A stretch of DNA of 22,784 bases from Candidatus Auribacterota bacterium. GTDB lineage: Bacteria; Auribacterota; JAFGBW01. This document shows positions 1 to 20,072 of the stretch, one piece after another. The stretch's first letter is position 1. Each line of letters opens with the position of its first letter. The stretch covers positions 1-22,784 of the forward strand of contig JAFGBW010000051.1 in the NCBI GenBank assembly GCA_016932965.1, written 5' to 3'. The notes beneath the pieces were generated by a model. It had not been told where the DNA came from, did not search any database, and was given only the letters and a program-made list of their open reading frames with translations. A program made the position numbers and the translations under genes.

Positions 1-5
1 CGTTG

Positions 6-70
6 GAGGTAAATTTTTTATCGGCTAATCAGGTCGCTTCGCTCCCATTATCCGACAAAAAATTAACCTC
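6..70. repeat. 65-bp near-palindromic element upstream of the SRAP gene
   Basis: Positions 6-24 and 52-70 are inverted copies of each other with 17 of 19 matches. Inner TAAT/ATTA arms and a GCTTCGC apex lie between them. On the other strand the apex reads GCGAAGC, a sequence known to form an unusually stable mini-hairpin. The whole unit could fold as a cruciform in DNA or a long hairpin in RNA. A reading frame runs through it into the SRAP gene, but the palindrome and the SRAP family's N-terminus show that part is not coding. It could be a REP/MITE-like dispersed element or a terminator for a gene to the left. Its copy number in the genome is unknown. Confidence 0.7.
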
Positions 71-131
71 AACTCGGCCTTTAGAATTTCGATTTGAATT
101 TAAAAAAATACCATCATCAGGGAGTGCACGG

Positions 132-824
132 ATGTGCGGCAGGTTTGTGAGAAAAACAACCGCTTCTGAAGCGGCCAAATCCATCCCGGGTTCGGTTGTT
201 CTGGCAGATTCCCAGCTCAGTTTCAATATCGCACCGGGGGTTTTGGTCTCGGTTCTTGAGAAAGAAAAGGAACTGCGCTGGACTCTTCATCACTGGGGCA
301 TTCAACCCAGATGGGAAAAAAACGGCTCTTCGAATCAAATCATCAATATCCGGTGTGAGACCCTCTCTGACAGAAGCTTTTTTGACGAGGATTTGAAGCA
401 TCGGCGCTGCCTGCTGCTGGCTGACGGATTTTATGAATGGAAAAAAACAGGGGCCCGGTCCGAACCTTATTATTTTTTTCTGAAGGACAGCCGTCCCTTT
501 TTTTTTGCCGGAATCTGGAACTCCATCAGTCAGCCTTATGAAGATGTCATTCATGCCTGCGCCATCATCACAGTTCCGGCCAATCCTTTAGTCGGCCGGA
601 TCCATACCCGTATGCCGGCCATATTGTCCCTGGAAGAGGGCAGTGACTGGATCCGGAATTCCTCTATGATTAAGTCGGAACTCTGCCGGTTTTTGAAACC
701 CTGTCCGGATGACCGGATGAGCAGTCACCGGGTTTCCCAGTGGATGAATTTCCAAAAACATGATACAGAAGAATGCATCAAGCCTGTTGGGGATGAACCG
801 GAAAAGGAATTGAATTTGTTATGA
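132..824 (+). CDS. yedK: SRAP-domain protein (YedK/HMCES family, abasic-site DNA-protein crosslink)
   Basis: Encodes about 230 residues of the SOS-response-associated peptidase (SRAP) family. These proteins sense abasic sites in single-stranded DNA and form a thiazolidine crosslink through Cys2. The start is set at the ATG followed by TGC GGC because the family requires Met removal to expose Cys2 (MCGRF); a longer in-frame extension would run through a palindrome and bury that cysteine. Family residues visible: Cys2, Asn72 in IINIRCET, Glu102 in ADGFYEW and His158 in IHTRMPAIL. The length is normal for the family. The stop overlaps the umuD start by ATGA, so the two are probably translated together as a DNA-damage operon. 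No convincing operator was found in the AT-rich stretch from 71 to 131. The family call is firm. Confidence 0.95.
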   Translation: MCGRFVRKTTASEAAKSIPGSVVLADSQLSFNIAPGVLVSVLEKEKELRWTLHHWGIQPRWEKNGSSNQIINIRCETLSDRSFFDEDLKHRRCLLLADGFYEWKKTGARSEPYYFFLKDSRPFFFAGIWNSISQPYEDVIHACAIITVPANPLVGRIHTRMPAILSLEEGSDWIRNSSMIKSELCRFLKPCPDDRMSSHRVSQWMNFQKHDTEECIKPVGDEPEKELNLL

Positions 825-1285
825 TTAGACGAAAAACCATGAAAATCAAAAAGGATCCTGTGATTAAGGAAATTTACCGGTTCGAGGACGGACACAAGGT
901 GATGTGTCCTATTTTTGAGTCGAGGGTTGCGGCTGGTTTCCCTTCGCCTGCGGACGATTTCATCGAACGGAAGCTGGATCTGAATGAATTCCTTGTCCGT
1001 CATCCCTCCTCAACCTTTTTTGTGAGGGTGTCCGGGGATTCCATGATCGGCGCTGGAATCAATCATAATGATATTCTGATTGTGGACCGTTCACTGGAAG
1101 TATCCGATAAGGCGGTCATCATTGCCGTGTTAGACGGTGAGCTGACGGTCAAACGTTACAGGGAGAAGGACGGGAAAAAATATCTTATGTCCGAAAATCC
1201 CCGTTTCAAACCCATGGAGATCGGAGAGAAAACGCCCTTTGAATTATGGGGGGTTGTGACCAGCGTGATTCATAAGGTTGGTTGA
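821..1285 (+). CDS. umuD: UmuD-like S24 family autoprotease, DNA polymerase V accessory subunit
   Basis: Encodes up to 154 residues of the LexA/UmuD self-cleaving serine protease family. UmuD is cleaved at Ala-Gly under RecA* stimulation to give UmuD', which joins UmuC to form a translesion polymerase. The cleavage site is Ala38-Gly39 (RVAAGFPSP), the nucleophile Ser74 (SGDSM) and the general base Lys111 (LTVKR). The spacings (Gly39 to Ser74 = 35, Ser74 to Lys111 = 37) equal those of E. coli UmuD. No helix-turn-helix precedes the cleavage site, so this is UmuD rather than LexA. The ATG at 821 overlaps the SRAP stop; a second in-frame ATG at 839 is an alternative. Unlike the usual umuDC pair, umuC is not next: a 3-kb gene on the other strand lies between. 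Confidence 0.93.
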   Translation: MIRRKTMKIKKDPVIKEIYRFEDGHKVMCPIFESRVAAGFPSPADDFIERKLDLNEFLVRHPSSTFFVRVSGDSMIGAGINHNDILIVDRSLEVSDKAVIIAVLDGELTVKRYREKDGKKYLMSENPRFKPMEIGEKTPFELWGVVTSVIHKVG

Positions 1286-1423
1286 GGGGTGGGGACTCTG
1301 CCTGGACTGAATTGATCAGACCGGGTTTTGGAGGATGGAATTTCAACAAGTCTGTAATTACACGCCGGATATCTACCAGCTTGATTCGTTGAAATGGATC
1401 GGGGAAGGAATGACAGCCGTTGA

Positions 1424-4423
1424 TCAGGCGGCTGAGTCAATCATGGCATCATAAGGATTGACCATGGGGCCTGGTTCTGTTGGTTCTGCCTCCGGCAGAA
1501 CTGGTTGAAGCGTTTCCCTGCTTTTTATCTTGGCGTTTTGACATTTTTCAATTTTTCTTAGGAGTCTCTGACCCCGCCTGCCTTCTTTGTCTTTGTCAGA
1601 AAGACCGTCAAATTCCTTCTGCAGAGAGTCGATCCTGCCATCCAGAATGGCATCCGACTTTTCCAATAACATTTTAGCCTCTTCCTGTGTCTTTTCCTTT
1701 TGCCGTTCCATGGCCCGGATCATTCTTTCATAGTTTTTGGCTGTTTGGACCGCTTCTGCGGCAGGATGCAGGGGCAGGGGTTTTTTCTCAGGAGTGGTTT
1801 CAGGACTGGGAGCCGTTTCGACAGGAGCCGAAGTCTCCAAAGGCACCACGGGTTCTGTGTGAACAGGAGGAAGTGTCTCTGTGATGGGAGAAGGGGTGAG
1901 AAGCGGGATGGGGGTTTTCATGACTGAAACGTCCCCCCTGACCAATAAACCGATTCCGGCGATCAGCATGGCCATGGATATATTTCTCAGGGTAAAGGTG
2001 TCTTGGATGAAATTCCAGGCAGTAACGCCGCCTTGAACGACTCTCCCTATGTTTCTGCTTCTCAAATACGCCTCATCCCTGGCCAGGTTTTCTTGTGCCT
2101 CTGTTTCCAGTTGTCTCAATATCCTCTGGGAAGTAACACCCTCGTTTGTTTCGGTGATGAGCTCAAGGATGTCTTCCGGGTTCATTCGTCTCACAGCCTC
2201 TTCCATGCTTGCATCGGTCAAGGTTTCCAGCAATTCCGCGGTTTCCAGGATTCGTTCCGCCCAGACGGACAGAATGTTCCGATACTCTGTCACGCTCCGG
2301 ACATTAGTCTCAAGAGCCTGAATCTGTGAGGTGATTTGATCAATGGCGGCCATTTGACGGTCGAGATCCCAGAACACGATACGGGCGGCGGCACGGGCCT
2401 TTTCCCGGTTTTCCATAAGGGTCCTTATCTGCCAGCGTAAATCATCCGCTGCCGCATCCGCCCGGCCGGTATAGTGGACCAGCATGGTCCGAACAGATTC
2501 CAGGAGGGGGACTACGGCATGGGAATTTTTCTGTATCAACGATTTTTCTGACAGGGAGTTCAGTTCATTTTTTGCTGACACTTCACGGGATAACATCTGG
2601 CCGGGTTCCTGAATGACAGTGGGTTGATAATCCGGAACAGCTGTTAATGATTCCAGGCAGGTGATGAGTCTGGAAAATAACACAGCGGCCTCCTGATTTT
2701 TCCGGATGGCTGTTTGTTCTGAAGAAAAAATGTCCGCCACACATTTAGCGACTGCTTCAAGCCGTTGCTGAAGGGTTGAAATCAGGACCGCCCTGTCTGC
2801 GGGCAGGGAGGTTGGTTCAGCCAGTACGGTGAGACCCGTTTGGATGACTCCTGCATCTCCTCCCAGTGATTCAGTCTGGTCTTCCAGGTTCTGATTCCGC
2901 ATAGATGCTTTTATGACCTGGCTGCTGGCCTGATTCCATGTTTCATGGGCTTCTGCGCTCAAAGAGGAACTGTCACGCTCCAGTGTCTGCATGAATTCGG
3001 TCATCTCCCTGTACGCGATTTCGCCCCTCTGATACAGGCCTTTCAGGGCGAGCATCGATGCTTTGCGAAATTTACCCGTGATATCATGAGCCTTCATGAC
3101 CAGGGTGTAAGCCGTGTTGCAGGCTTGCGCCAGGTTTTCCCGGGTGCCGTTTTCCCCGGCTGCCGCTGCTGCCGCCTGTTCCGCCTTCCTGAGCGCTTTG
3201 AGCGCTTCTTCAGCCTGTTCAACCTGTGTGGTGATATCCGTTTGCTCCGGTTTCAGCATCCAGTACAGGTCCTTGTTGTTTTTCGTCATCATGCCCAGAT
3301 ATTTGTCGGTTAATGAGTTTCTGATGATTTCCGGTGTGGCATCCAATACGTTCCGGACAGCTTCAGCCCGGACTCGATATTGCTTTGAAACAACCGGGTC
3401 TCTTATGGTATCCCTGATGATCACCAGGCTTTCATGTAAGGATCTCAGCCCAATGAGGGTGTTATTATGCGTTGAGATCAGGGTGTTTAATGAATCATAG
3501 GCATGCATCACCCGGTCTGATGAGGCTTCAATGAGGGCCACTTCCTCCGCGGAAATGGGCGCTTCTGCCAATTTTTTACTTAGTTCAATAAATAAATTAT
3601 CCTGGTCAATGATGGCTTTCTCCAGTTCCTCTTCCGCCGTCCTGATTTTAGTCCGGGTTGACTCCAGACTCAGTATCGAGCCTTCGGCCGTTGTATCCAG
3701 AAAGGTCAATAAGGCCGGGATATCCTCGAGGCTGACTCTGGCTTTTCTGCAGGCTGTTTCGATCCAGGTCCAGGACGGTATGGCCTTCAGATTTTGCAAT
3801 ATATTCTGGAGATCCGTATCCTTATCCTGTTCCTGTCGTAATTTCTGAAGTTCTGCAAGTTGCCGGGCATATTGGTCCTGAATTTCACGGATCCCATCCA
3901 GCAGTTTTCTGATATCGGCAGCCTGTGTTTTAAAACTAGCCGGGCCGTACAATTCAGCTGCAGCAGAGGCAAAGTTGAGCATTCGTTGCAGGGCAGCGTT
4001 ATAGTACGGAAGGAAATCGGCGGATTCTTCAAAGATACTCAGGGTTCTATCCATATTTTTTTCAGATTGCCTATGGGTTATCGCCTGAACAGCGTTTTCA
4101 TAAGCCCGGTTCAGCTTTTCTTGATATTGTACAAAACGGTCGGTCGCCAGATCCGACAGGACAATCCAGACATCATCCGGGTTATAGGGGTTATAGCCTC
4201 TCTGGATGGCTGTGCTTTTGACATCTCTCCAATTGGGTCCGTCCATCATGACCCGGAATAAGCCGTCTGCATCTTTCTGTTTCCTGACGATATCCTGAAT
4301 CAGGGATTTTTGGGCAAGGCATCTTTTTCCCGGACTATTCCAGTCAGAAGGAAATACGGGCTGCAAAATCAGGGATGCGATAAGAACATGACTGATGAAT
4401 TTAAATTGTTTCAAGTAAAGCAT
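1424..4423 (-). CDS. Large exported helical protein of unknown function
   Basis: I do not recognise this 999-residue protein. Its first ~38 residues look like a signal peptide: Lys5 and Lys8, then a hydrophobic run around ISHVLIASLILQPVF. The body is charged, rich in Glu, Gln, Ala and Leu, and has heptad-like patterns consistent with long alpha-helices or coiled coils. A likely transmembrane segment lies near residues 812-830 (SMAMLIAGIGLLV). After it come a Pro/Thr/Glu-rich stretch (about 836-890), a Lys/Glu-rich helix and a Pro-rich tail. The frame is unbroken over 3 kb with normal codon use, so it is a real gene. It sits between umuD and umuC on the opposite strand, its 3' end pointing at umuD, and shares the 4424-4564 region with umuC as a divergent promoter. 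No role in DNA repair is implied by its sequence. Confidence 0.85.
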   Translation of the reverse strand: MLYLKQFKFISHVLIASLILQPVFPSDWNSPGKRCLAQKSLIQDIVRKQKDADGLFRVMMDGPNWRDVKSTAIQRGYNPYNPDDVWIVLSDLATDRFVQYQEKLNRAYENAVQAITHRQSEKNMDRTLSIFEESADFLPYYNAALQRMLNFASAAAELYGPASFKTQAADIRKLLDGIREIQDQYARQLAELQKLRQEQDKDTDLQNILQNLKAIPSWTWIETACRKARVSLEDIPALLTFLDTTAEGSILSLESTRTKIRTAEEELEKAIIDQDNLFIELSKKLAEAPISAEEVALIEASSDRVMHAYDSLNTLISTHNNTLIGLRSLHESLVIIRDTIRDPVVSKQYRVRAEAVRNVLDATPEIIRNSLTDKYLGMMTKNNKDLYWMLKPEQTDITTQVEQAEEALKALRKAEQAAAAAAGENGTRENLAQACNTAYTLVMKAHDITGKFRKASMLALKGLYQRGEIAYREMTEFMQTLERDSSSLSAEAHETWNQASSQVIKASMRNQNLEDQTESLGGDAGVIQTGLTVLAEPTSLPADRAVLISTLQQRLEAVAKCVADIFSSEQTAIRKNQEAAVLFSRLITCLESLTAVPDYQPTVIQEPGQMLSREVSAKNELNSLSEKSLIQKNSHAVVPLLESVRTMLVHYTGRADAAADDLRWQIRTLMENREKARAAARIVFWDLDRQMAAIDQITSQIQALETNVRSVTEYRNILSVWAERILETAELLETLTDASMEEAVRRMNPEDILELITETNEGVTSQRILRQLETEAQENLARDEAYLRSRNIGRVVQGGVTAWNFIQDTFTLRNISMAMLIAGIGLLVRGDVSVMKTPIPLLTPSPITETLPPVHTEPVVPLETSAPVETAPSPETTPEKKPLPLHPAAEAVQTAKNYERMIRAMERQKEKTQEEAKMLLEKSDAILDGRIDSLQKEFDGLSDKDKEGRRGQRLLRKIEKCQNAKIKSRETLQPVLPEAEPTEPGPMVNPYDAMIDSAA

Positions 4424-4485
4424 GGTTCGTTTTCCTAACAGGAATAATGTACGTCATTAAATTTTTTTACCTGATTTCAAAATAA

Positions 4486-8851: not shown

Positions 8852-9318
8852 TCACTCATTCTTAATTAATCTGGTAAACCACCGGCACAGTTTTTGGACT
8901 TCCAGAGTCAGACAATTCCGGAAGTTTTAAAGAAGTGATTTCACAACGGACACGGAGATCACGGAGTTTGTCATCATGTCTTAAAGGCATGATGAATCTC
9001 AGATGACAAATTTCAAATCTCAAATTATTGGCGTTTCTCTTGCTTCCTCCGTGGTGGAAAAAAGTTTTTTATATTAAAATAAACCGCTTTGAGCAGTTCA
9101 CATTTTAAATGCCGGCTCTGCCGGTAGGATAGTTACTTGCTCCGTTTTGTGGAACGGGAACGGTCCTATTTTTTTGGAAAACAGGTGTGTGTCTTTTTGT
9201 CTCACTTTGTCTCAGAAAAAATGCTTTTTTTTCATTTGCTTCATGATTACGAATCCTTTTCTGAAGATCATTCAACTCATTGAAAAACAATCAATTAAAA
9301 TCGAAATGTTTTTTTTGG
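8852..9318. repeat. Non-coding stretch with degenerate CACGGAG-type repeats
   Basis: No convincing gene lies between lnt and the Hsp20 operon. Two direct copies of CACGGAG (8951-8957 and 8960-8966) are followed by an inverted copy, CTCCGTG (9047-9053). Between them is a perfect 8-bp stem, TCATCATG/CATGATGA (8971-8978, 8988-8995; 9-nt loop), and direct repeats of CAAATCTCAAAT type. This pattern resembles dispersed intergenic repeats known from several environmental Proteobacteria-like genomes. From 9060 to 9318 the DNA is AT-rich with many T-runs and no clear structure. Confidence 0.5.
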
Positions 9319-9354
9319 CATGACATTTGATTGGTGTGAAAATCAAAAGACATG
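9319..9354 (+). promoter_or_regulatory. Imperfect inverted repeat in the leader of the Hsp20 operon
   Basis: Positions 9319-9332 and 9341-9354 are inverted copies with 12 of 14 matches around an 8-nt centre. They lie 12 bp before the Shine-Dalgarno of the first Hsp20 gene. This is a good place for an operator or an RNA structure controlling a heat-shock operon. It is not the CIRCE element (TTAGCACTC-N9-GAGTGCTAA). Neither arm pairs with the GGAGG, so a simple ribosome-site-masking RNA thermometer is not evident. The function is inferred from position only. Confidence 0.35.
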
Positions 9355-9377: not shown

Positions 9378-9800
9378 ATGTTAGCACGTTATGCATTAAA
9401 TCCTTTTTATGAATTGACCAGATTGCAAAGGGAAATGAACAATTTGTTTGATGATTACGGATCGGAGTCTGAAACCTATCCGGCACTCAATTTATGGAGC
9501 GACAATCAGCAGGCGATCGTCACTGCAGAGATTCCCGGTATTGATACAAAGGATTTGAATATCACGGTAAACAACAGTCTTTTGACTCTTGAGGGAGAAA
9601 AGAAAGAGGAAGACCTGGGCAAAGACGCGGTTTATCACAGAAGTGAAAGAGGAACCGGGAAATTTTCAAGAACCATCCGTCTGCCGTTTGAAGCAGACGA
9701 GGGGAAAATCAGCGCTGCCTATACGAACGGGGTCTTGAAAATAACGATACCCAGGGCAGAAGCAAGTAAACCCAGGAAAATTGAGATCACAAAAGGATAA
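9378..9800 (+). CDS. Small heat-shock protein, Hsp20 family (first of four)
   Basis: A 140-residue ATP-independent holdase that binds unfolding proteins. The N-terminal arm (LNPFYELTRLQREMNNLFDD, within residues 1-25) is followed by an alpha-crystallin domain (about 35-130), which ends in the family signature GVLKITIPR. The C-terminal I-x-I anchor is IEI (RKIEITKG), used to assemble oligomers. The ATG at 9378 is chosen because AAGGAGG ends six bases before it; a longer in-frame TTG reading from 9327 would pass through the upstream inverted repeat. It opens a run of three soluble Hsp20 genes spaced 25-35 bp apart, each with a near-perfect ribosome-binding site, which points to one highly translated operon. 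Confidence 0.96.
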   Translation: MLARYALNPFYELTRLQREMNNLFDDYGSESETYPALNLWSDNQQAIVTAEIPGIDTKDLNITVNNSLLTLEGEKKEEDLGKDAVYHRSERGTGKFSRTIRLPFEADEGKISAAYTNGVLKITIPRAEASKPRKIEITKG

Positions 9801-9834
9801 GACTTAAGAGAAAATAAAAAAGGAGGGTCAAGTC

Positions 9835-10242
9835 ATGGAACTAGACAAGAAATTAGCTAATAAAGAGGAAAAGAAATCAAGTGGCCCGGCGGAACTGACA
9901 TATGACAAGCCGCAGTTCATTCCGGCAACAGATATCTACGAAAAGGGAGACTCTATCTACATCGTATGTGATATGCCCGGAGTCGATGAGAAGAATATAG
10001 ATATTTCGCTGGAAAATGATGTGCTGACATTGACAGGACATCAGGATTCAGAAACTCACGAGGGTTATGAGATGTTGCATCGCGGATATGTATCCGGGAT
10101 ATACCAGAGGTCTTTTACCGTCACTGATGGAATAGACCGTGAGAAAATCAAGGCGAAAATGACCAACGGTGTATTGAAGATAGAGCTCCCGAAAGCGGAA
10201 AAAGTCAAACCGAAGAAAATTCAGATTACTGTTGAAAAATGA
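9835..10242 (+). CDS. Small heat-shock protein, Hsp20 family (second of four)
   Basis: A 135-residue Hsp20 protein. Its N-terminal arm differs from its neighbours: the first ~20 residues are Lys/Glu-rich (MELDKKLANKEEKK) and lack the amphipathic FxxLxRE segment that usually binds clients or builds the oligomer core. The alpha-crystallin domain starts near PATDIYEKGDSIYIVCDMPG and ends with GVLKIELPK; the C-terminal anchor is IQI (KKIQITVEK). AGGAGGG lies just before the ATG. It follows the first Hsp20 gene after 34 bp. Because the arm is divergent, it may act as a partner or modulator subunit in hetero-oligomers with the first and third proteins; that is inference. Confidence 0.95.
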   Translation: MELDKKLANKEEKKSSGPAELTYDKPQFIPATDIYEKGDSIYIVCDMPGVDEKNIDISLENDVLTLTGHQDSETHEGYEMLHRGYVSGIYQRSFTVTDGIDREKIKAKMTNGVLKIELPKAEKVKPKKIQITVEK

Positions 10243-10267
10243 ACAATAAATTGAGGAGGTGATGGTC

Positions 10268-10780
10268 ATGTTGAAGAATATATTACCGTGGAAAAGAAAG
10301 GAAAATCAGCTCAAAAGATACCAAGACGGGGATATTTTTTCTGACTTTCACAGACGGTTCAATGAATTGTTTGATCAATTCTTTGATGAAACCGGAAAAG
10401 GTTTTCAGATGCCTTCCTTGTGGAAAGAGGAAGACAACTGGTTTCAGACCCCGGATATTGATGTCTCTGAAAACAGCTGTGAGCTCAAAGTGGAGGCCAA
10501 CCTGCCCGGACTGGATGAAAAGGACATCCAGGTGAATCTGGACGGGGACAGGCTCATCATTAAAGCTGAAAAATGTGAAGAAAAGGAAGACAAAGACAGC
10601 AAATACCATTTGTCTGAAAGACGGTGCGGAAAATTTCAGAGAGTCATCCCCATCCGGGAGGATGTGGTGGACAGGGATAAGATCAAGGCAGAATTGAAAA
10701 AAGGAGTGTTAAGAATTACGTTACCCAAACTGCCGGGTAGAGAGACGCAAACAAAAAAAATAGCCATATCCGCTGGATAA
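10268..10780 (+). CDS. Small heat-shock protein, Hsp20 family (third of four)
   Basis: About 170 residues, the longest soluble Hsp20 here. A basic N-terminus (LKNILPWKRKENQLKRY) leads into an amphipathic arm, FSDFHRRFNELFDQFFDE, and then the alpha-crystallin domain from about TPDIDVSENSCELKVEANLPG to GVLRITLPK. The C-terminal anchor is IAI (KKIAISAG). Possible starts are GTG 10259, ATG 10262 and ATG 10268; the last is preferred because GGAGG (10255-10259) stands eight bases before it. The gap after the second gene is 25 bp. A strong hairpin 12 bp after the stop may end or thin the transcript before the membrane-anchored Hsp20 gene. The WKRK-type N-terminus is common in bacterial Hsp20 proteins and need not mean membrane binding. 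Confidence 0.95.
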   Translation: MLKNILPWKRKENQLKRYQDGDIFSDFHRRFNELFDQFFDETGKGFQMPSLWKEEDNWFQTPDIDVSENSCELKVEANLPGLDEKDIQVNLDGDRLIIKAEKCEEKEDKDSKYHLSERRCGKFQRVIPIREDVVDRDKIKAELKKGVLRITLPKLPGRETQTKKIAISAG

Positions 10781-10792
10781 GGCATCACAAAA

Positions 10793-10821
10793 AAGCAGGT
10801 GAGAGATCTTCTCACCTGCTT
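10793..10821. terminator. Strong hairpin after the third Hsp20 gene
   Basis: AAGCAGGTGAGA (10793-10804) pairs perfectly with TCTCACCTGCTT (10810-10821) around a 5-nt loop. An A-run precedes it, and only TT then AACCC follows. On the plus strand it therefore lacks a U-tract, while on the minus strand it reads as a textbook intrinsic terminator (stem then TTTTTTG). It could protect the 3' end of the Hsp20 mRNA, partly terminate it, or stop antisense transcription. Confidence 0.65.
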
Positions 10822-10922
10822 AACCCGGCAAGCAATCCCTGCACATTTTTTAACTAGGTTGTTTTTGCCATTTCATAATCCCCTTTTAACCAGTCAGGAA
10901 GATATGAATAAGGAGGCTGATT

Positions 10923-11654
10923 ATGAGTGCTGAAAAGAAGACCAACATGTTGATTGCCCTGATACTGTTGTTGTTGATTATTGTCGGTGTTCAGGGTTTT
11001 TATCTGTTTAGATTATACGATCCTTTATCGAAGGCAACAACTCATGTCAGCAGGACCGGATCGGAAGTCCCTGTTCAGACAGATCTGGTCGGTTCACTTC
11101 AAAATAATAATAATCGATCCGGTTCTCAGAACAATAATCATTCGTCCCAAAAAAATACTAACAGAAGCACGGGTTTTGATCTGTTTATGGATGAGGCGCT
11201 TATGGAGGCATGGAATCCATTTGAAGAGATGCAGAGAATGCGTGAAGCAATGGATCATATGTTTCAGAATTCTTTGGGGCGGTTCAAATCCAGTCCAAAT
11301 TATAAAGGATTACTGCAGGATGATTTTTTTTCTCCGGATATGGATCTGAAGGAAAAAGAAGATCAATACATTGTGAGACTGGACATCCCCGGGATGGACA
11401 AATCAGATATCAATATCACCCTGAGCGACAGAGTGCTCTCCGTTTCCGGCAGGCGTGATATCCAGCACCAGGAAAAAGACAGCAATCAGATGCTACGCCA
11501 GGAGAGATATCAGGGGCAGTTCAAAAGATCATTGACACTGCCGGGTCCTGTTGATGAGGGAAAAATGAAGGCCCAATATCAGAACGGCGTATTGACGATC
11601 ATCATTCCCAAAGCGGTTTCTCCAAAAATAAAAAAACAGGTAAAAATTTTGTAA
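10923..11654 (+). CDS. Membrane-anchored Hsp20 (N-terminal TM helix, Asn-rich linker, alpha-crystallin domain)
   Basis: Encodes 243 residues, about 100 more than a normal Hsp20. Residues 9-29 are one very hydrophobic helix, preceded by Lys5-Lys6. By the positive-inside rule the N-terminus stays in the cytoplasm and the rest faces the periplasm. A polar linker rich in Asn, Ser and Gln spans about 35-82, with NNNN at 61-64 and NNN at 70-72. An amphipathic arm (NPFEEMQRMREAMDHMF, 98-114) and an alpha-crystallin domain (about 139-231, ending GVLTIIIPK) follow, with a VKI anchor at the C-terminus. AAGGAGG precedes the ATG. The helix could also be an uncleaved signal sequence; no good cleavage site is seen. 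A holdase tethered at the periplasmic face would protect envelope proteins without ATP. The gene sits between soluble Hsp20 genes and a YfdX-like exported protein. Confidence 0.93.
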   Translation: MSAEKKTNMLIALILLLLIIVGVQGFYLFRLYDPLSKATTHVSRTGSEVPVQTDLVGSLQNNNNRSGSQNNNHSSQKNTNRSTGFDLFMDEALMEAWNPFEEMQRMREAMDHMFQNSLGRFKSSPNYKGLLQDDFFSPDMDLKEKEDQYIVRLDIPGMDKSDINITLSDRVLSVSGRRDIQHQEKDSNQMLRQERYQGQFKRSLTLPGPVDEGKMKAQYQNGVLTIIIPKAVSPKIKKQVKIL

Positions 11655-11667
11655 AAGGAAAAAAAGG

Positions 11668-11757
11668 ATGATCTTGAGGCATGATAAAGCATTCGATTAC
11701 ATCAGGAACCAAAGAAGTCCTCCGTATAGGGAATATCTTAAAAACAGATTGATCTGA
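11668..11757 (+). CDS. Possible 29-residue small protein
   Basis: A short frame starts at an ATG placed eight bases after AAAAGGA, directly after the anchored Hsp20 gene, and encodes a basic, Tyr/Arg-rich peptide (FDYIRNQRSPPYREY in its middle). It has no signal peptide or known domain. It may be a genuine small protein of the stress operon, a remnant of a longer gene, or chance. It is supported only by its position and ribosome-binding site. Confidence 0.3.
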   Translation: MILRHDKAFDYIRNQRSPPYREYLKNRLI

Positions 11758-11810
11758 TAGGATAACTAAGAGACCGGACATTTTTTTGAATGCATAGAAA
11801 GGAGGTAATC

Positions 11811-12812
11811 ATGAGTCGGACAGCTTATTTTCTTTTAATGCCTTGGAAAAGAATATTACGGATATCATCCATTACGATCGTATCTTTTTTGGCTCTTACT
11901 CAAGCAATCGCAGAAGATTCCGATAAATCGGCAATCGTAACCGGGAGCGGCAAACCGTATAAGACGGAAGTGAAAAGGGTGACCAGAGGGGAAATTTCTA
12001 AAGATGATCTGCATCAGGCGTCCCTTCTAACTTCCAGGGTGATGGCACACGTGGAAAAAAGTGTCAATATGATGGCTGACAATAATATTGAATCAGCTAA
12101 ACAGAATATCGAGAAAGCGCAGGCTCTTATTGGGATTGTCCGTGAAATTCTTCCGGTAACGGAAGTCACCACTTTTGTGACAGATAAAAATGGAAAAACT
12201 GTCTATGAAAATCAGGAACGCATTCAGGATGATGTCATCCAAATCTACAGCCAGATGATCGAATTAGAAGTAGTTGAGCCAATCATTGAGGCCAAGCAGG
12301 ATGAAGCAGCTTTAAAGGGCCTGCGTTTGAGAGACGCCAATGTCATTTATTCTTCGATTTTGGTAGATTTGAAATATATCGAACGCAAGCTGGCCAGCGC
12401 GGTCCGGAAGATCGACAAATCTGAAGAAGCCTTGAGAGAGTTGATGTTAGCCCGGACAAAAGGGATTGATTTAAAGATCAATGAAAAGGACAATCCGTTG
12501 ATTGATGTTCAGAAAGCGCTCAAACTGGCTGAAAGAATGGTCGAAGAAAATAAACCGGAAGCGGCTAAATACAATCTCAATATAGCCAACATTCAGCTTG
12601 AGACATATAAAAACATCATAGGTGAAGCGGAAGGCAGGAAAGCCAGAGAACTTCAGGAGGAAATTGAACGGATCAAAAGCAAGCTTGAGTCAAAGGATGC
12701 TGCCAGAACAATAAGAGAATTATGGCAAAGGACTGTGAGCTGGTTCAGACAGTATCCTGGTCAGGCACATGATACGGTAATAAACGAAAAGGAACCCGGA
12801 ATAAAAAAATGA
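11811..12812 (+). CDS. YfdX-like exported protein
   Basis: A 333-residue protein that I assign tentatively to the YfdX family. YfdX proteins are periplasmic, helical, chaperone-like and linked to acid and heat stress. A signal peptide covers about residues 1-34 (basic MPWKR, then a hydrophobic run ending LTQAIAED). The mature part is nearly all helical, with the YfdX-like pattern of a helix starting near the first mature residues and ASLLTSRVMAHVEKSVNMM followed by ESAKQNIEKAQALIGIV. A second similar repeat (VQKALKLAERMVEENKPEAAKYNLNIA, about 230-256) suggests an internal duplication. A coiled-coil tail (RKARELQEEIERIKSKLESK) follows. It is longer than the ~200-residue E. coli YfdX. AAAGGAGG lies before the ATG at 11811. 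It closes the Hsp20 cluster, which supports a protein-quality-control role in the envelope. Confidence 0.68.
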   Translation: MSRTAYFLLMPWKRILRISSITIVSFLALTQAIAEDSDKSAIVTGSGKPYKTEVKRVTRGEISKDDLHQASLLTSRVMAHVEKSVNMMADNNIESAKQNIEKAQALIGIVREILPVTEVTTFVTDKNGKTVYENQERIQDDVIQIYSQMIELEVVEPIIEAKQDEAALKGLRLRDANVIYSSILVDLKYIERKLASAVRKIDKSEEALRELMLARTKGIDLKINEKDNPLIDVQKALKLAERMVEENKPEAAKYNLNIANIQLETYKNIIGEAEGRKARELQEEIERIKSKLESKDAARTIRELWQRTVSWFRQYPGQAHDTVINEKEPGIKK

Positions 12813-12870: not shown

Positions 12871-14085
12871 TTAAGCAGCAAGGTTTCTGACATCGGCCCT
12901 CTTTTTTTGTCCGGGATGGGAGTCCGGATCCTTCCAGCCTGTTTCTTCGAGCATGGGAAATAACACTCGCTGCAGACTGGGGTCAGCCAAACCCATGCTG
13001 GACAGCCTTCGGAGTCTTTGCAGATTCAATAAGATTTTCCTGGAGTCTGAGTGCTGGAGTGCCGAGCGTAATATCTCCGTATATTTCGAAGCTTCTCTGA
13101 TTTTTATTTCCGGATACATGGCCAGTTTGAACTGATAAAGGTATAGAAGATAATCCAGAACCCTGGAGGAAGAATCGATCCAGACCAGGGTGACTTTCGG
13201 ATGCGGGGTGTCAGGGTGAATGATTGTGTCTGAATTAAAATCAAGAATCATGTGCCTTGAAGGAAATCTTTTTTTTAAATATTTGGAGTAATCTTCCAGA
13301 TAGGACGCGTCACGTTTCTTCTCTCTCAAAATATGATTTGTTGTGTTTAACGGAATAAATATAACAACCGGTTTCTGCCTGGCTTTATTTTCAGCGATAT
13401 TGGAAACAGTTTCGAGCAGGCAAAGTCCAAGTTCCGCCCCGCTGCAGACAATCACATTTCCGCCCTGCTGGATGTCTTCCAGTGCAGGATCCGGCAGCGT
13501 TCCTCCAATGGAACGATAGTGGCTGGCAGGGATTTCAGCGGAAATATTTGTTTCAGGGTAAGCATTTCCTGCTGATCTGGAATAAAGCACGATTCTTCTC
13601 GCAACCAGGTCAGGATCATTGAACAAAGGATCTATCCCTTGTTTCATGATTCTGTATACTTTTGAACTTAAGACTCCTTCTGTTGCTCCGACATGAGTGA
13701 TGGTGAGAGTTGGCTCCAGACTGGCTTCCTGGAGATACAGATTAACCATTTGATGCTTTAATACATCGTCCAGGCTGCCCGAAACGGTCGGTTTAACAAC
13801 CGGAGCTTCAATAGGAGTGCCGTTTATCAGGTCTAAAAATGTCTGAACCAATTCCGCCTGTTCCGGATCATTTTTTGAGATGGTCCGGAGTCGTTCTATT
13901 AGAGCCAGTTTTCCCGGATCCCTGACCGAGTGAAAGATCGTGTCCGGAGAAAGACAGGACAATTCTTCCAACCTGGGTGAAGGCCCTGTTATGAAGGATA
14001 AAAGCACGATGATTGAAATCCGGCACCAAAGAATCTTCCTAGACGTTATACTCAGTATGAAGTTGGCAAGTTGCATGTTGAGCAT
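12871..14085 (-). CDS. Exported or membrane-tethered protein of unknown function
   Basis: I do not recognise this 404-residue protein. Its N-terminus has a basic stretch (ITSRKILWCRI) and then a single hydrophobic segment (ISIIVLLSFITG, about 24-36), so it is probably exported or held by one N-terminal helix. The remainder looks globular. Hydrophobic beta-strand-like stretches such as GGNVIVCSGAELGLCLLE, KPVVIFIPLN and PKVTLVWIDSS alternate with helices in a Rossmann-like rhythm, which may mean a nucleotide- or ligand-binding fold, but no catalytic motif stands out. The C-terminus is Leu/Arg-rich and helical. The Shine-Dalgarno is weak (GGTAAGC next to the ATG), so a start at the internal Met4 is possible. 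It converges on the Hsp20/YfdX island and has no partner on its strand. Confidence 0.75.
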   Translation of the reverse strand: MLNMQLANFILSITSRKILWCRISIIVLLSFITGPSPRLEELSCLSPDTIFHSVRDPGKLALIERLRTISKNDPEQAELVQTFLDLINGTPIEAPVVKPTVSGSLDDVLKHQMVNLYLQEASLEPTLTITHVGATEGVLSSKVYRIMKQGIDPLFNDPDLVARRIVLYSRSAGNAYPETNISAEIPASHYRSIGGTLPDPALEDIQQGGNVIVCSGAELGLCLLETVSNIAENKARQKPVVIFIPLNTTNHILREKKRDASYLEDYSKYLKKRFPSRHMILDFNSDTIIHPDTPHPKVTLVWIDSSSRVLDYLLYLYQFKLAMYPEIKIREASKYTEILRSALQHSDSRKILLNLQRLRRLSSMGLADPSLQRVLFPMLEETGWKDPDSHPGQKKRADVRNLAA

Positions 14086-15358: not shown

Positions 15359-16870
15359 ATGAAAGGGAATCCGGTGTCATTACAAACATTCGTTTCAAAA
15401 AAATATGATGTCCCGGATTTTCATCCGGGACATCTTGCCCCCCGTGTCCGCGGGAAGAAGTTATTGATCAGATTCTCGGTCATCTCTTTTTTTGTTTTTT
15501 GTTTTTTTATATCCGGGTTTGAGAAAGATGTATATTCCATGGAAAACCGGCCGGAAAAAGAAAAACAAGTTCTGACCCTGTCTGAATTCTGCTCGCGGGT
15601 ACTGAATCATGATCCAACACTTAAAAAACAAAGCGCCTCTGTTGAAGAAGCCCTTGCGGGTCAGGCTATTGCTTCTTCCATGAGATGGCCCAAAGTTGAG
15701 GTGGCAGGCACTTTTTTATCCTCAAATGATCCGGTCTCGGTTTTCGGCATGTTGTTAAAACAAGGGGCTTTTTCCCAGTCGGATTTTTCACTGGAGCGTC
15801 TCAACAACCCTTCTTCAAGATCCAACTGGAATTTCCTTCTTCAGGCCGGATTACCTGTGTTTGACGGTCTGCAAATCCGTCTGTCGGCTGAATCTGCCCG
15901 GTATGCGGCTGAATCTGCCAAACGCATGCAGTCTTTTTTCAAATCCAAAACCATTCTGGTTGCTGCGCAGGCCTATTTGAACACGGTTCTGGCACAGTTG
16001 ATTTTTGATGCTGCCGGTAAAACAACCATGCAGGCTGAAGAAGATTTGCAGCAGGCAGAACAGCTCAAGACTAAGGGGATGATTCTCGGGGCTGATTTTT
16101 ATGCCGCCAGGGTCGTGTACGCCGGAATGACACAAATGAAAAATCAGGCGCAAAAGCGGATACAGGAATGTTTCATGATCATGGCTATTTTAGCAGGAGA
16201 CCCTTTGAATGATGAATATCATGTAGTCAGGGAGTGTTCTGAAGATATTCCCGCTTCGATTCCGTTGGAAGAATGGATTCAGAAGGCATTCAATAAAAGA
16301 GAAGATCTGCTGGCTGTGAGACTCGCTGTTGAAGCAAAAGAGACGGAATTAAAAAGGGAAAAGGCTGCCAGTCTGCCGAGGGTATCGGTCTTTGCCTCCG
16401 CCGAATCCAATGCCGCTTCCAGCTGGGATGAACAGGGTACAAGTTATACAGCCGGGCTTAAAGGAACGTTTGATTTGTACGATCCATCGCGTTCTTCCAG
16501 GATCAAAAAAATTGAAAAGGAACTGGAGCAGTTGATTCAGGATGAGAAGATATTGCAGGACAGAATCGTCATGGATATGACTTCTGCCTGGAAAAATGAA
16601 GAGGTTCTTTTCATGAATCTTGATGCTGCCAGACAGTCTGTCCAGGATAGCTCTGAAGCAGTGAAACTGGTGGAGCCTCTTTATCGCGAGGGCAGAAAAT
16701 CTATCGCTGATCTATTGGAAATGAGAATGGCAAGCCAGTCTGCAGCAAATAATCTCGATGAAATCAGGACGAAACTGGAAATCCTACGTATCCAGCTTCT
16801 TTTTTTATCCGGTGAACTGGATGAGAGGCGTCTTGTGGAAATCGGGGCTGGAATAAAGGAGGAAGGATGA
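15359..16870 (+). CDS. TolC-family outer-membrane efflux protein
   Basis: Outer-membrane channel of the TolC/OprM family, which forms a trimeric beta-barrel with a long periplasmic helical tunnel. Counted from ATG 15359 it has 503 residues. Two TolC repeats are visible: LTLSEFCSRVLNHDPTLKKQ (first helix) with an Ala/Gln-rich helical stretch, and the second half beginning near REDLLAVRLAVEAKE and ending EPLYREGRKSIADLLEMR. The start is uncertain. The hydrophobic signal segment begins only at about residue 35, and a perfect hairpin (15407-15434) lies inside the N-terminal extension. A TTG at 15464 after CGGGAAGAAG would give a compact signal peptide, and a GTG at 15374 is another choice. The stop overlaps the ATG of the RND gene (ATGA), so the two are translationally coupled. 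No adaptor gene is nearby. Confidence 0.92.
   Translation: MKGNPVSLQTFVSKKYDVPDFHPGHLAPRVRGKKLLIRFSVISFFVFCFFISGFEKDVYSMENRPEKEKQVLTLSEFCSRVLNHDPTLKKQSASVEEALAGQAIASSMRWPKVEVAGTFLSSNDPVSVFGMLLKQGAFSQSDFSLERLNNPSSRSNWNFLLQAGLPVFDGLQIRLSAESARYAAESAKRMQSFFKSKTILVAAQAYLNTVLAQLIFDAAGKTTMQAEEDLQQAEQLKTKGMILGADFYAARVVYAGMTQMKNQAQKRIQECFMIMAILAGDPLNDEYHVVRECSEDIPASIPLEEWIQKAFNKREDLLAVRLAVEAKETELKREKAASLPRVSVFASAESNAASSWDEQGTSYTAGLKGTFDLYDPSRSSRIKKIEKELEQLIQDEKILQDRIVMDMTSAWKNEEVLFMNLDAARQSVQDSSEAVKLVEPLYREGRKSIADLLEMRMASQSAANNLDEIRTKLEILRIQLLFLSGELDERRLVEIGAGIKEEG
15407..15434. terminator. Perfect hairpin with a GAAA loop at the 5' end of the TolC gene
   Basis: GATGTCCCGGAT (15407-15418) pairs perfectly with ATCCGGGACATC (15423-15434) around a 4-nt loop. 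On the minus strand the loop is GAAA, a stable GNRA tetraloop, and the stem is followed by ATATTTTTTT, so it reads as an intrinsic terminator in that direction. On the plus strand it may act as a leader structure before a downstream TolC start. The 273 bp before ATG 15359 (15086-15358) hold no gene I can support. Confidence 0.6.
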
Positions 16871-17232
16871 ATACTGCGGCCCAACAGCAGGGATTTCTGG
16901 CAGGAGTGGTTAGGTATTTTGCCTCATCCAAGCTCACCCCGCTTTTTATTATTTCTTCTTTGTTGATCGGCTTTGCCGCTGTCGGGAATATTCCGCGTGA
17001 GGAAGAACCTCAGATAACTGTCCCTATGTTCGATATTTTTGTTTCGTTTCCCGGGGCTTCTTCCGAGGAGGTTGAAAAACGGATCGTCAATCTCGGGGAG
17101 AGAAAATTATGGGAGATCCCGGGTGTCGAATATATTTATTCCACCATCGAGTCACACCAGGCGCTGATCATCGTCCGTTTCCGGGTGGGGGAGGATTTTG
17201 AAAAAAGTCTCATCAAGCTGTACACCAGGTGA
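16867..17232 (+). CDS. RND efflux permease, N-terminal fragment
   Basis: The first 121 residues of a resistance-nodulation-division (RND) permease of the AcrB/HAE-1 type. It contains the first transmembrane helix (LTPLFIISSLLIGFAAVGNI, about 23-42), the family signature PREEEPQI, the porter-domain start (FPGASSEEVEKRI) and the stretch ending SLIKLYTR, where the frame meets TGA. The downstream frame continues the same protein without missing residues, so a normal permease is cut here by a one-base shift. The stop and the downstream GTG overlap as GTGA. Either this is a recent frameshift (or sequencing error) that kills the pump, or the two parts are made separately and assemble. The ATG overlaps the TolC stop. 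Confidence 0.9.
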   Translation: MNTAAQQQGFLAGVVRYFASSKLTPLFIISSLLIGFAAVGNIPREEEPQITVPMFDIFVSFPGASSEEVEKRIVNLGERKLWEIPGVEYIYSTIESHQALIIVRFRVGEDFEKSLIKLYTR

Positions 17233-20072
17233 CTTCCAATCTTGACTGGCTGCCAAAAGGGGCCATTCCGCCCTTGATCAAACCCCGTTCGATTGATGAC
17301 GTCCCTGTTTTAGCACTGACTTTTTACAGTGAAAACAAAAATCCCATGGAACTCAGAAAAGTTGTTTCAAAAGTCAGGCGGGAAATTTCTTCCATTCCCA
17401 ATGTATCTGAAACCAATCTGATCGGAGGAAAGAAACGCCAGTTTCAGATTCATTTTGACGAAGAGAAATTGAAATCCCGTCTTCTTTCACCGCTCGAGAT
17501 CCTTCATCTGGTTCAAGCAGCCAATGTCCGGATTCCGGCAGGCGTAATGGAATCGGCCCCTCTTCTGACGCAGGTTGAACCGAACGCGTTTTTTAATTCA
17601 AAGGAAGACCTGGAAAATCTGGTCATCGGGATCAGCAACGGCGAGAGCGTGTATTTAAAAAACATCGCACAGGTAAAAGACGGCCCGGACGAAGAAGATT
17701 CCGCGGTGAACATCCGTTTCGGCACGACTGTTCAGGAAAAAGGGATTCATGACGCTGTCACGCTTTCCGTTTCCAAGAGAAAAGGGACCAATGCGTCACA
17801 ATTATGTGAAACGATCCTCCATAGGGTGGAGAGCCTGAAAGACATGGTCATTCCGGAAGAGGTTTCTTTCAAGGTCACCAGAAATTACGGGGAAACCGCC
17901 TCGGAAAAATCCAATGAACTCCTTTACCATACACTCATAGCGGTTGTGAGTGTCAGCATCCTGATAGCGGTTTCCCTGGGTTTATATGAATCCGCTATCG
18001 TGGCTGTTGCCATTCCGGTGACCCTGGCTCTCACTCTGGCCACTTTCTTTTTTCTGGGTTTCACTCTCAACCGGATCACTTTATTTGCACTCATCTTTTC
18101 CATTGGAATTTTGGTGGATGATCCCATTGTCGGGGTGGAAAACATCATCCGCCATCTTCATATGAAACCCAATAAGGATCGTCCGATTCTTGACGTCACG
18201 ATTGAAGCGGTTCTGGAAGTCGGCAAACCCCTTATCCTTGCCACCTTTGCCGTGATTGCCTCCATTTTACCCATGGCTTTTGTGAGGGGACTCATGGGGC
18301 CTTACATGCGGCCCATCCCGATCGGCTCCAGTACGGCCATGGTTCTTTCCATGATCGTTTCTTTTATCATCACTCCCTGGGCCTCTTATCATATCCTCGG
18401 CTGGGCGGCAAAAAAAAGTCGGACCAAAAACCATGAAGCGGATAAGGAAGATTTCCTCACCCGGTTTTACCGCTGGTACATGCAGCCCCTGATATACCAT
18501 TCCGGCGCCAGGTGGATTTTTCTCATCTGCCTTACCCTTCTTCTTGCCGGAGCTGTTTCCCTGGTTCCGTTTAAAAAAGTCTGGCTGAAAATGCTTCCCT
18601 TTGACAACAAGAATGAATTTCAGGTCATTGTAAACCTGCCGGAAGGCACTCCTGTCCAGAAAACCCGTTCTGTCATGGAAGAGATAGCCGTTTATCTTCA
18701 GACCGTTCCTGAAGTCACAGATATTGAAATGCATATTGCATCCAGCGCCCCTTATAATTTCAACGGTCTTGTCCGGCATTATTTCCTACGGAACAGGCCT
18801 CATCAGGGGGATCTTCAGGTGAACTTATGCGGAAAAAGTTTGAGGAAAAGACAAAGCCACGAAATAGCGGATTCCGTGCGTCCAAGAATCCAGGCGATTG
18901 TCAGGAAAGCAAACGGGCATGTTCAGGTGGCTGAAGTGCCGCCAGGGCCTCCTGTCCTTTCCACCCTGGTTGTGGAAACATACGGCCCGACTCTGGATGG
19001 ACAGATCCAGGTGGCTAAAGAGATAGAGAAATTATTGTCTTCCACGGAAGGCATCACGGATGTGGATACCTATTTTCAGTCTGATGAAAATCTCATCCGG
19101 TTCAATGTGAATATCGAGAAGGCTTCATTAAACGGAATTGATGCGGCAACCATTGCAAGGACAATAAAGGCCGCTCTTTCAGGCGAAGTGGCGGATCTGG
19201 CAAGAATCCAGGAAGAATGCGAGCCCGTTGAGATCATTTTAAGGCTTCCAAAAAATAAAAGAGCCGATGATTCGGCATTGTTGAATATCCATCTGCTTTC
19301 ACGTTTCGGTAATCTGATTCCCCTAAAAGATCTGGTGTCAAAAAAAATCCAGAGGGCAGACCGGGCCATATACCATAAGAACCTAAGACCCGTAACCTAT
19401 GTGATAGCGGATGTTACGGGAGAATTCGGCAATCCGGTTTATGCCATCATGAAGCTTCAGAAAAAGCTGGACAACATCTCGTTACCTTCGGGAAAACAGA
19501 AAAAATTGGTCCAATATTACACGAATCAGCCATCCAACTCCGAAGAATGGGCGGTCAAATGGGACGGAGAATGGCATATCACCTATGAAGTATTCAGAGA
19601 TCTTGGCATCGCCTTTGGAATGGTTCTCATACTCATTTATATCCTCGTCGTTGGCTGGTTCCAGTCGTTTAAGATCCCCCTGATTGTCATGCTCCCGATT
19701 CCGTTATCTTTGGCAGGGATTCTGCCGGCGCACTGGATGACCGGGATATTTTTTACCGCTACGTCCATGATCGGCCTCATTGCCGGAGCGGGTATTGTGG
19801 TTAGAAATGCCATTATTCTGGTTGATTTTATCGAGCTTCGCCTCAATCAGGGAATGGCGCTTGAAGAAGCCGTGATCGATGCCGGAGTCAAACGTTTCCG
19901 TCCCATGCTGCTGACGGCTTCAGCCGTGGTGGTCGGATCTTCCGTTATCCTTTTTGATCCGATTTTTCAGGGGCTAGCGCTGTCTTTAATGGCAGGTGAG
20001 ATCGCCTCCACACTGCTTTCCAGGACAGCTGTTCCGGTTATCTATTACATGATGATGAAGAAAAAGAAGTAA
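17229..20072 (+). CDS. RND efflux permease, main part (frame-shifted from the N-terminal fragment)
   Basis: A 947-residue continuation of the RND permease; with the upstream fragment the total is about 1,070, normal for the family. It begins GTG ACT TCC (TSNLDWLPKGAIPP), which directly follows KLYTR in family alignments. Helices of the first half run from about 234 to 400, with the proton-relay Asp297-Asp298 in GILVDDPIVGVEN. A large porter loop and the second set of helices (about 790-940) follow. The conserved TM10 Lys of AcrB is Arg859 here (GIVVRNAIILVDF). The pump would export drugs or other amphiphiles using the proton gradient through the TolC channel encoded upstream. The last residues are KKKK. 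No periplasmic adaptor (HlyD/AcrA family) gene is present in the window. Confidence 0.94.
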   Translation: MTSNLDWLPKGAIPPLIKPRSIDDVPVLALTFYSENKNPMELRKVVSKVRREISSIPNVSETNLIGGKKRQFQIHFDEEKLKSRLLSPLEILHLVQAANVRIPAGVMESAPLLTQVEPNAFFNSKEDLENLVIGISNGESVYLKNIAQVKDGPDEEDSAVNIRFGTTVQEKGIHDAVTLSVSKRKGTNASQLCETILHRVESLKDMVIPEEVSFKVTRNYGETASEKSNELLYHTLIAVVSVSILIAVSLGLYESAIVAVAIPVTLALTLATFFFLGFTLNRITLFALIFSIGILVDDPIVGVENIIRHLHMKPNKDRPILDVTIEAVLEVGKPLILATFAVIASILPMAFVRGLMGPYMRPIPIGSSTAMVLSMIVSFIITPWASYHILGWAAKKSRTKNHEADKEDFLTRFYRWYMQPLIYHSGARWIFLICLTLLLAGAVSLVPFKKVWLKMLPFDNKNEFQVIVNLPEGTPVQKTRSVMEEIAVYLQTVPEVTDIEMHIASSAPYNFNGLVRHYFLRNRPHQGDLQVNLCGKSLRKRQSHEIADSVRPRIQAIVRKANGHVQVAEVPPGPPVLSTLVVETYGPTLDGQIQVAKEIEKLLSSTEGITDVDTYFQSDENLIRFNVNIEKASLNGIDAATIARTIKAALSGEVADLARIQEECEPVEIILRLPKNKRADDSALLNIHLLSRFGNLIPLKDLVSKKIQRADRAIYHKNLRPVTYVIADVTGEFGNPVYAIMKLQKKLDNISLPSGKQKKLVQYYTNQPSNSEEWAVKWDGEWHITYEVFRDLGIAFGMVLILIYILVVGWFQSFKIPLIVMLPIPLSLAGILPAHWMTGIFFTATSMIGLIAGAGIVVRNAIILVDFIELRLNQGMALEEAVIDAGVKRFRPMLLTASAVVVGSSVILFDPIFQGLALSLMAGEIASTLLSRTAVPVIYYMMMKKKK

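Follow-up and report, generated by a model that had tools for sequence, protein, structure and literature searches.

Four Hsp20 genes followed by a YfdX-like gene, all on one strand between positions 9378 and 12812 of a 22,784-nt stretch of DNA from Candidatus Auribacterota bacterium (assembly GCA_016932965.1, contig JAFGBW010000051.1; hereafter the window), probably make up a stress operon of small heat-shock proteins (sHsps) with holdase function, which would form part of a heat-shock regulon governed by sigma-54 and an activator and including ClpB in trans. We base this reading on a predicted sigma-54 promoter and a palindromic enhancer that precede the first Hsp20 gene, recur before cytoplasmic Hsp20 operons in 11 families of the phylum, and occur once more before the clpB gene, which lies outside the window. 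In most descriptions, heat-shock genes of bacteria are controlled by sigma-32, HrcA, CtsR, or extracytoplasmic function (ECF) factors. Myxococcus HsfA/lonD, where an NtrC-type activator acts on a heat-shock gene, is one experimental precedent. A sigma-54 promoter with a common enhancer at sHsp operons and clpB would be a concrete alternative to this usual control, in which transcription of stress genes would depend strictly on an ATP-using activator.

The gene cluster and its predicted promoter and enhancer

The genome under study (G000) is a metagenome-assembled genome (MAG) of 3.14 Mb that is 92.6% complete. The cluster contains the following features, given in window coordinates:

9188-9204 (+): predicted upstream activator site (enhancer), TGTGTCTTTTTGTCTCA, 16.7 bits with the de novo motif
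9198-9214 (+): second, weaker enhancer copy, overlapping the first
9316-9331 (+): predicted sigma-54 -24/-12 promoter, TGGCATGACATTTGAT, 46 nt before the H1 start codon
9378-9800 (+): H1, soluble Hsp20, 140 aa, C-terminal IEI, PF00011 E 3.1e-22
9835-10242 (+): H2, soluble Hsp20, 135 aa, C-terminal IQI, PF00011 E 1.5e-21
10268-10780 (+): H3, soluble Hsp20, 170 aa, C-terminal IAI, PF00011 E 3.3e-20
10793-10821 (+): H3-H4 hairpin, 12-bp perfect stem, -20.4 kcal/mol, z -4.0
10923-11654 (+): H4, Hsp20 with one N-terminal transmembrane (TM) anchor, 243 aa, C-terminal VKI, PF00011 E 4.6e-24
11668-11757 (+): possible open reading frame (ORF) of 29 aa between H4 and Y
11811-12812 (+): Y, divergent YfdX-family protein with a signal-peptide-like N-terminus, 333 aa, PF10938 26.6 bits
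12831-12846/12852-12867: closing hairpin, terminator-like, 16-bp perfect stem, -30.2 kcal/mol, z -8.5

All four Hsp20 proteins contain an alpha-crystallin domain (72-85 bits against a Pfam cut-off of 20.8) and an I-X-I/V motif that can be read near the C-terminus of each translation. A PF00011 search of the whole MAG matched H1-H4 only, so the cluster represents the whole detected sHsp complement of the organism. An earlier note, made from the sequence alone, had described three soluble Hsp20s with near-perfect Shine-Dalgarno sites, a TM-anchored Hsp20, and an exported YfdX-like protein on one strand, with a closing hairpin. The PF00011 and PF10938 searches and the 16-bp stem confirm this description, and each of the five starts has a strong Shine-Dalgarno site before it. 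The promoter with its enhancer and the second hairpin at 10793-10821 are additions to it.

The -24/-12 element upstream of H1 has a weighted match of 14/16 (p ~0.002 against shuffles). The enhancer still scores 16.0 bits when its own family is held out from the motif, and the exact pattern TGTGTCNNNNNGNCNCA has a single match in the whole 3.14-Mb genome, which is the H1 enhancer. CIRCE and sigma-32 patterns were sought upstream of H1, and none was found. All promoter and enhancer calls are post hoc sequence comparisons, controlled by held-out families, shuffles, and reversed sequence.

The phylum sample comprised 44 genomes, 24 of them with Hsp20, and the main test set consisted of 18 leaders of cytoplasmic Hsp20 operons from 11 families plus 12 regions upstream of exported-Hsp20 genes. 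The -24/-12 element occupies the corresponding position at all H1 loci. Among the 18 leaders, 16 carry a sigma-54 element of at least 13/16 and 14 one of at least 14/16, located 34-72 nt from the start codon; only 0.4% of random 120-nt windows reach a score of at least 14. The palindrome, with the consensus TGTGtCA-TGaCACA, was found de novo at 67-177 nt upstream of the -24 element with a discovery score of 79, versus 17-25 in shuffled sets. When enlarged upstream windows were used, enhancers of at least 12 bits (random 99th percentile, 9.5) preceded 17 of the 18 leaders, and four of these sites (G023, G035, G016, G015) lay outside the stretches used for motif training. Family-held-out training recovered 16 of the 18 sites, with G031 yielding a different site of similar score and G028 none; the latter locus, a cytoplasmic and lipoprotein Hsp20 pair (L049, 710-1989, minus strand), is the one clear exception. 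Neither the enhancer nor the sigma-54 element was found before any of the 12 exported-Hsp20 genes. RpoN is encoded in our genome (TIGR02395, 407.6 bits against a cut-off of 277.35, the gene being cut by the contig end) and in 38 of the 44 phylum genomes.

clpB and other candidate members of the regulon

The rpoN gene lies on contig C17 of our genome (L088), where its divergent neighbour is clpB:

3-1403 (-): rpoN
1893-4454 (+): clpB, with an enhancer at 1727 and a sigma-54 promoter at 1815-1830

The product of the latter gene is a true ClpB at equivalog level (1268.8 bits against a cut-off of 1232.1). Its leader carries an enhancer of 14.3 bits and a promoter matching 15/16 at 62 nt before the ATG, and a motif trained without our genome recovers this enhancer at 13.7 bits. 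A scan of 657 kb for enhancer and promoter together pointed to the Hsp20 leaders, to this clpB, and to about four other sites that are weak or unexplained; in the control on reversed sequence it gave no such pairs. The rpoN regions of relatives were also examined, and no clpB was found there. DnaK and two DegP/HtrA-type genes were, like ClpB, located elsewhere in the genome. The proposal in the earlier note that the cluster operates without ATP-driven partners is not supported: the genome encodes both ClpB and DnaK, and the clpB leader shares the enhancer and sigma-54 promoter of the cluster. In another genome of the sample (L102, G007:C14), the region at about 8928-9036, upstream of a gene for an FmdB-like zinc-ribbon protein, holds strong copies of the enhancer, TGTATCACTATGACACA and another close by. 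This gene is a possible further member of the regulon; the sigma-54-like match there is poor.

An unlikely alternative is that the cluster is controlled by a housekeeping or heat-shock sigma factor, with H4 and the YfdX gene as separate units and with sigma-54-like and palindromic elements that are coincidental or belong to another regulator. It could draw on a weak sigma-70-like match at 9315-9343, which overlaps the predicted sigma-54 element, and on the hairpin and wide gaps between H3, H4, and Y. Sigma-70-like matches are, however, no commoner in the region than in shuffles (5 versus 8.3), and the -24/-12 element and the palindrome recur together, with matching spacing, in 11 families and before clpB. 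This recurrence and the recovery of sites in family-held-out tests argue against the alternative.

Several observations nevertheless weigh against sigma-54 control of the cluster and the wider regulon. The -12 element of the H1 promoter is GA and not GC, and the promoter match in G014 is poor. G028 has RpoN but neither element, and G021, G031, and G035 carry the elements, yet gave no PF04552 match (these MAGs may be incomplete). The clpB link was examined in one genome only, and the grpE-dnaK leader (L089, G000:C283, 5495-5635) has a sigma-54-like element of 14.5/16 but only a weak enhancer of 8.9 bits. Within the cluster, no sigma-54 element was found upstream of H4 or Y, and the hairpin at 10793-10821 could separate these two genes from H1-H3. 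This hairpin has no U-tract on the plus strand and is possibly an attenuator or an RNA-processing element. Because of it and of the wide H3-H4 (142 nt) and H4-Y (156 nt) gaps, a single transcript across all five genes is only plausible. The 29-aa ORF in the H4-Y gap has a plausible ribosome site and no counterpart among the loci compared.

Exported Hsp20 proteins and the YfdX-like gene

The order H1-H2-H3 is kept in six genomes (G000, G002, G017, G036, G043, where it occurs twice, and G038). In the tree, the H1 branch of six genomes is supported at 100/100 and the H2 branch is also supported, the identity of H2 to its counterparts being 57% for G017 and 45% for G002; since H3 is not resolved in the tree, its counterparts were assigned by position and best match. 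In G002, which belongs to the same taxonomic order, H1-H2-H3 occur with a DUF308/HdeD-like protein, a TM-anchored Hsp20 that is 34% identical to H4 over 230 residues, and a DisA-type gene. The DUF308/HdeD-like membrane protein (L039, 4672-4929, minus strand; 85 aa, 24.0 bits against a cut-off of 25) is encoded between H3 and H4, and the DisA/DacZ-type gene follows the H4 counterpart. From these comparisons the Hsp20 core looks like a long-standing resident of the phylum and not a recently assembled island, contrary to the independent assembly that had been suggested. The gene order proposed for close relatives is thus partly conserved: H1-H2-H3 in six genomes and H4 also in G002, where the YfdX gene is not kept.

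To our knowledge, exported small heat-shock proteins have been little described. In this lineage they are common, and in four genomes (G000, G002, G013, and G028) they are encoded behind cytoplasmic Hsp20s, an arrangement that bears on how ATP-free protection of envelope proteins is organised. In G013 and G028 the export types are signal peptide and lipoprotein, and in eight other genomes of the phylum exported Hsp20s stand alone. Ten of the 12 exported Hsp20s, H4 included, fall on one branch with a support of 84/93, just below the usual threshold of the program; the proteins that group with H4 there include both signal-peptide and TM-anchored forms. H4 itself carries a single N-terminal TM segment that is apparently uncleaved and a Gln/Asn/Ser-rich linker; its crystallin domain is predicted to face the periplasm, because several members of the branch carry plain signal peptides. 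As far as localization can be predicted, the two-compartment Hsp20 layout recurs in the phylum, which agrees with the earlier description of a proteostasis cluster spanning cytoplasm and envelope. A different architecture was seen in G022, where an ORF (L058, 1-4108; 2355-3524, minus strand) encodes an exported protein in which an Hsp20 domain shares one chain with a PDZ domain and a zinc-ribbon-like stretch.

The N-terminus of Y is hydrophobic and signal-peptide-like, judging from hydropathy and a reading of the sequence. Against PF10938 (YfdX), Y scores exactly the gathering score, a bare pass; a protein of Gemmatimonadota bacterium DHS20C21 (L069/L073), 50% identical to Y over 286 residues, passes clearly with 32.1 bits. 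The YfdX assignment made earlier is therefore upheld narrowly by Y itself and clearly by its relative. It is quite unlikely that Y is instead some other exported helical protein, unrelated to YfdX, that just reaches the Pfam threshold. A score exactly at the cut-off would fit such a protein, as would an AlphaFold model, built from two sequences only, with a pLDDT of 57 and no PDB match in a fold search, where 3DZA represents the YfdX fold, and a profile-profile probability of 22%; the score of the 50%-identical relative, the profile-profile E of 9.5e-4 with a co-linear alignment over 239 columns, and the similar Hsp20 neighbourhood argue against it.

In DHS20C21, hsp20 stands between an upstream gene whose product ends in a DegP-like PDZ domain and a downstream yfdX, and no sigma-54 or enhancer match was found at this locus. 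YfdX-type proteins are rare, occurring in 9 of 384 sampled genomes and in 3 of the 44 genomes of the phylum. The other two genes of the phylum are not beside Hsp20, and none of the other Hsp20 loci examined in the phylum has YfdX. On this distribution, the YfdX gene appears as an add-on to the Hsp20 cluster. Around the YfdX matches in G340, G361, G249, G323, and G127, no Hsp20 was seen in the ~14-19 kb examined, so the Hsp20-YfdX linkage is no general rule. Pattern scans for close relatives of Y in genome contigs with Y alone, plasmids, and viral contigs gave none, and a match in G135 was rejected as a TolC-type coiled coil.

Proposed mechanism and relation to known systems

The sequences themselves establish the genes and their domains, the conservation of order, the promoter and enhancer elements, the match at clpB, and that RpoN, DnaK, ClpB, and DegP are encoded. 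From them we infer that the promoter is used, that an activator and a stress signal control it, that H4 and Y are co-transcribed, that H4 has the proposed topology, and that the proteins act as chaperones. When stress damages proteins, a putative enhancer-binding protein of the bacterial activator type would attach to the palindrome at 9188-9204 and trigger opening by the sigma-54 polymerase bound at 9316-9331; no GAFTGA protein was found near the cytoplasmic Hsp20 operons. H1-H3 would act in the cytoplasm as holdases for unfolding proteins. In the envelope, this task would fall to H4, anchored in the inner membrane with the crystallin domain on the outer side, and to exported Y. The role of Y is suggested by analogy with YfdX proteins from Klebsiella and Salmonella, for which chaperone-like activity in the periplasm has been published (PMC4941729, PMC6394985). 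The distant clpB gene would respond to the same activator through a promoter of the same type, so that ClpB and DnaK could resolve cytoplasmic clients; periplasmic clients would be passed to DegP-type proteases.

We regard as evenly balanced a broader proposal, namely that the phylum runs its sHsps and ClpB through sigma-54 and a dedicated NtrC-type activator binding TGTGTC-N5-GACACA, in place of sigma-32, HrcA, or CtsR, and that in some members the same promoter sends sHsps and YfdX to the periplasm. Control of sHsps by sigma-54 had already been proposed: for Planctomycetota and Bacteroidota, a position-matrix survey (PMC12316311) predicts such promoters before chaperone genes, among them the IbpA group (COG0071) and COG0542. 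The portions of that survey considered here report statistical enrichment by COG and note no enhancer motif for these genes; our loci differ from those regulons in a specific enhancer palindrome that is shared across 11 families of another lineage and with clpB. A limited literature search returned no report of this palindrome, its breadth in the lineage, its absence at exported genes, or its sharing with clpB. With IbpA/IbpB and Hsp18-type operons the cluster has in common the alpha-crystallin domain, the C-terminal I-X-I, and tandem sHsp genes, but here three cytoplasmic paralogues are clustered with a TM-anchored one, behind a predicted sigma-54 promoter with an enhancer.

The presence of sHsp and YfdX in one locus recalls the heat-resistance loci LHR/tLST (PMC8290217), to which the earlier note had compared the cluster. 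Co-occurrence of Hsp20 and YfdX there, in Kuenenia (PMC7438415), and in the Gemmatimonadota degP-hsp20-yfdX locus would favour an independently assembled island of this kind, that is, a horizontally spread stress cassette, but this is highly unlikely and for the Hsp20 core largely refuted: no ClpG/ClpK, HdeD, KefB, Trx, or DegP was recognised among the window ORFs, as the note had itself largely reported; the disaggregase of the organism is a ClpB-type protein scoring 733 against a cut-off of 1900 for both ClpG and ClpK; counterparts of H1-H3 stand in order across the phylum; and no plasmid relative of Y was found. The tLST modules YfdX1-YfdX2-HdeD and Trx-KefB-DegP are represented by one YfdX-type gene, the others not being recognised. 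In the putative Hsp20-YfdX-Do/DegQ operon of Kuenenia stuttgartiensis and in the DHS20C21 locus, Hsp20 also stands beside YfdX on the same strand; they differ in having one Hsp20 only and a DegP-type protease within the cluster.

Outside the cluster, an Rfam search of the window matched nothing, and the proteins encoded at 12871-14085 (-) and 1424-4423 (-), of 404 and 999 aa, have no family match above the cut-off. An RND efflux permease, with a TolC-type gene 5' of it, extends over two overlapping frames (16867-17232 and 17229-20072, plus strand), which points to either a broken gene or an assembly error.

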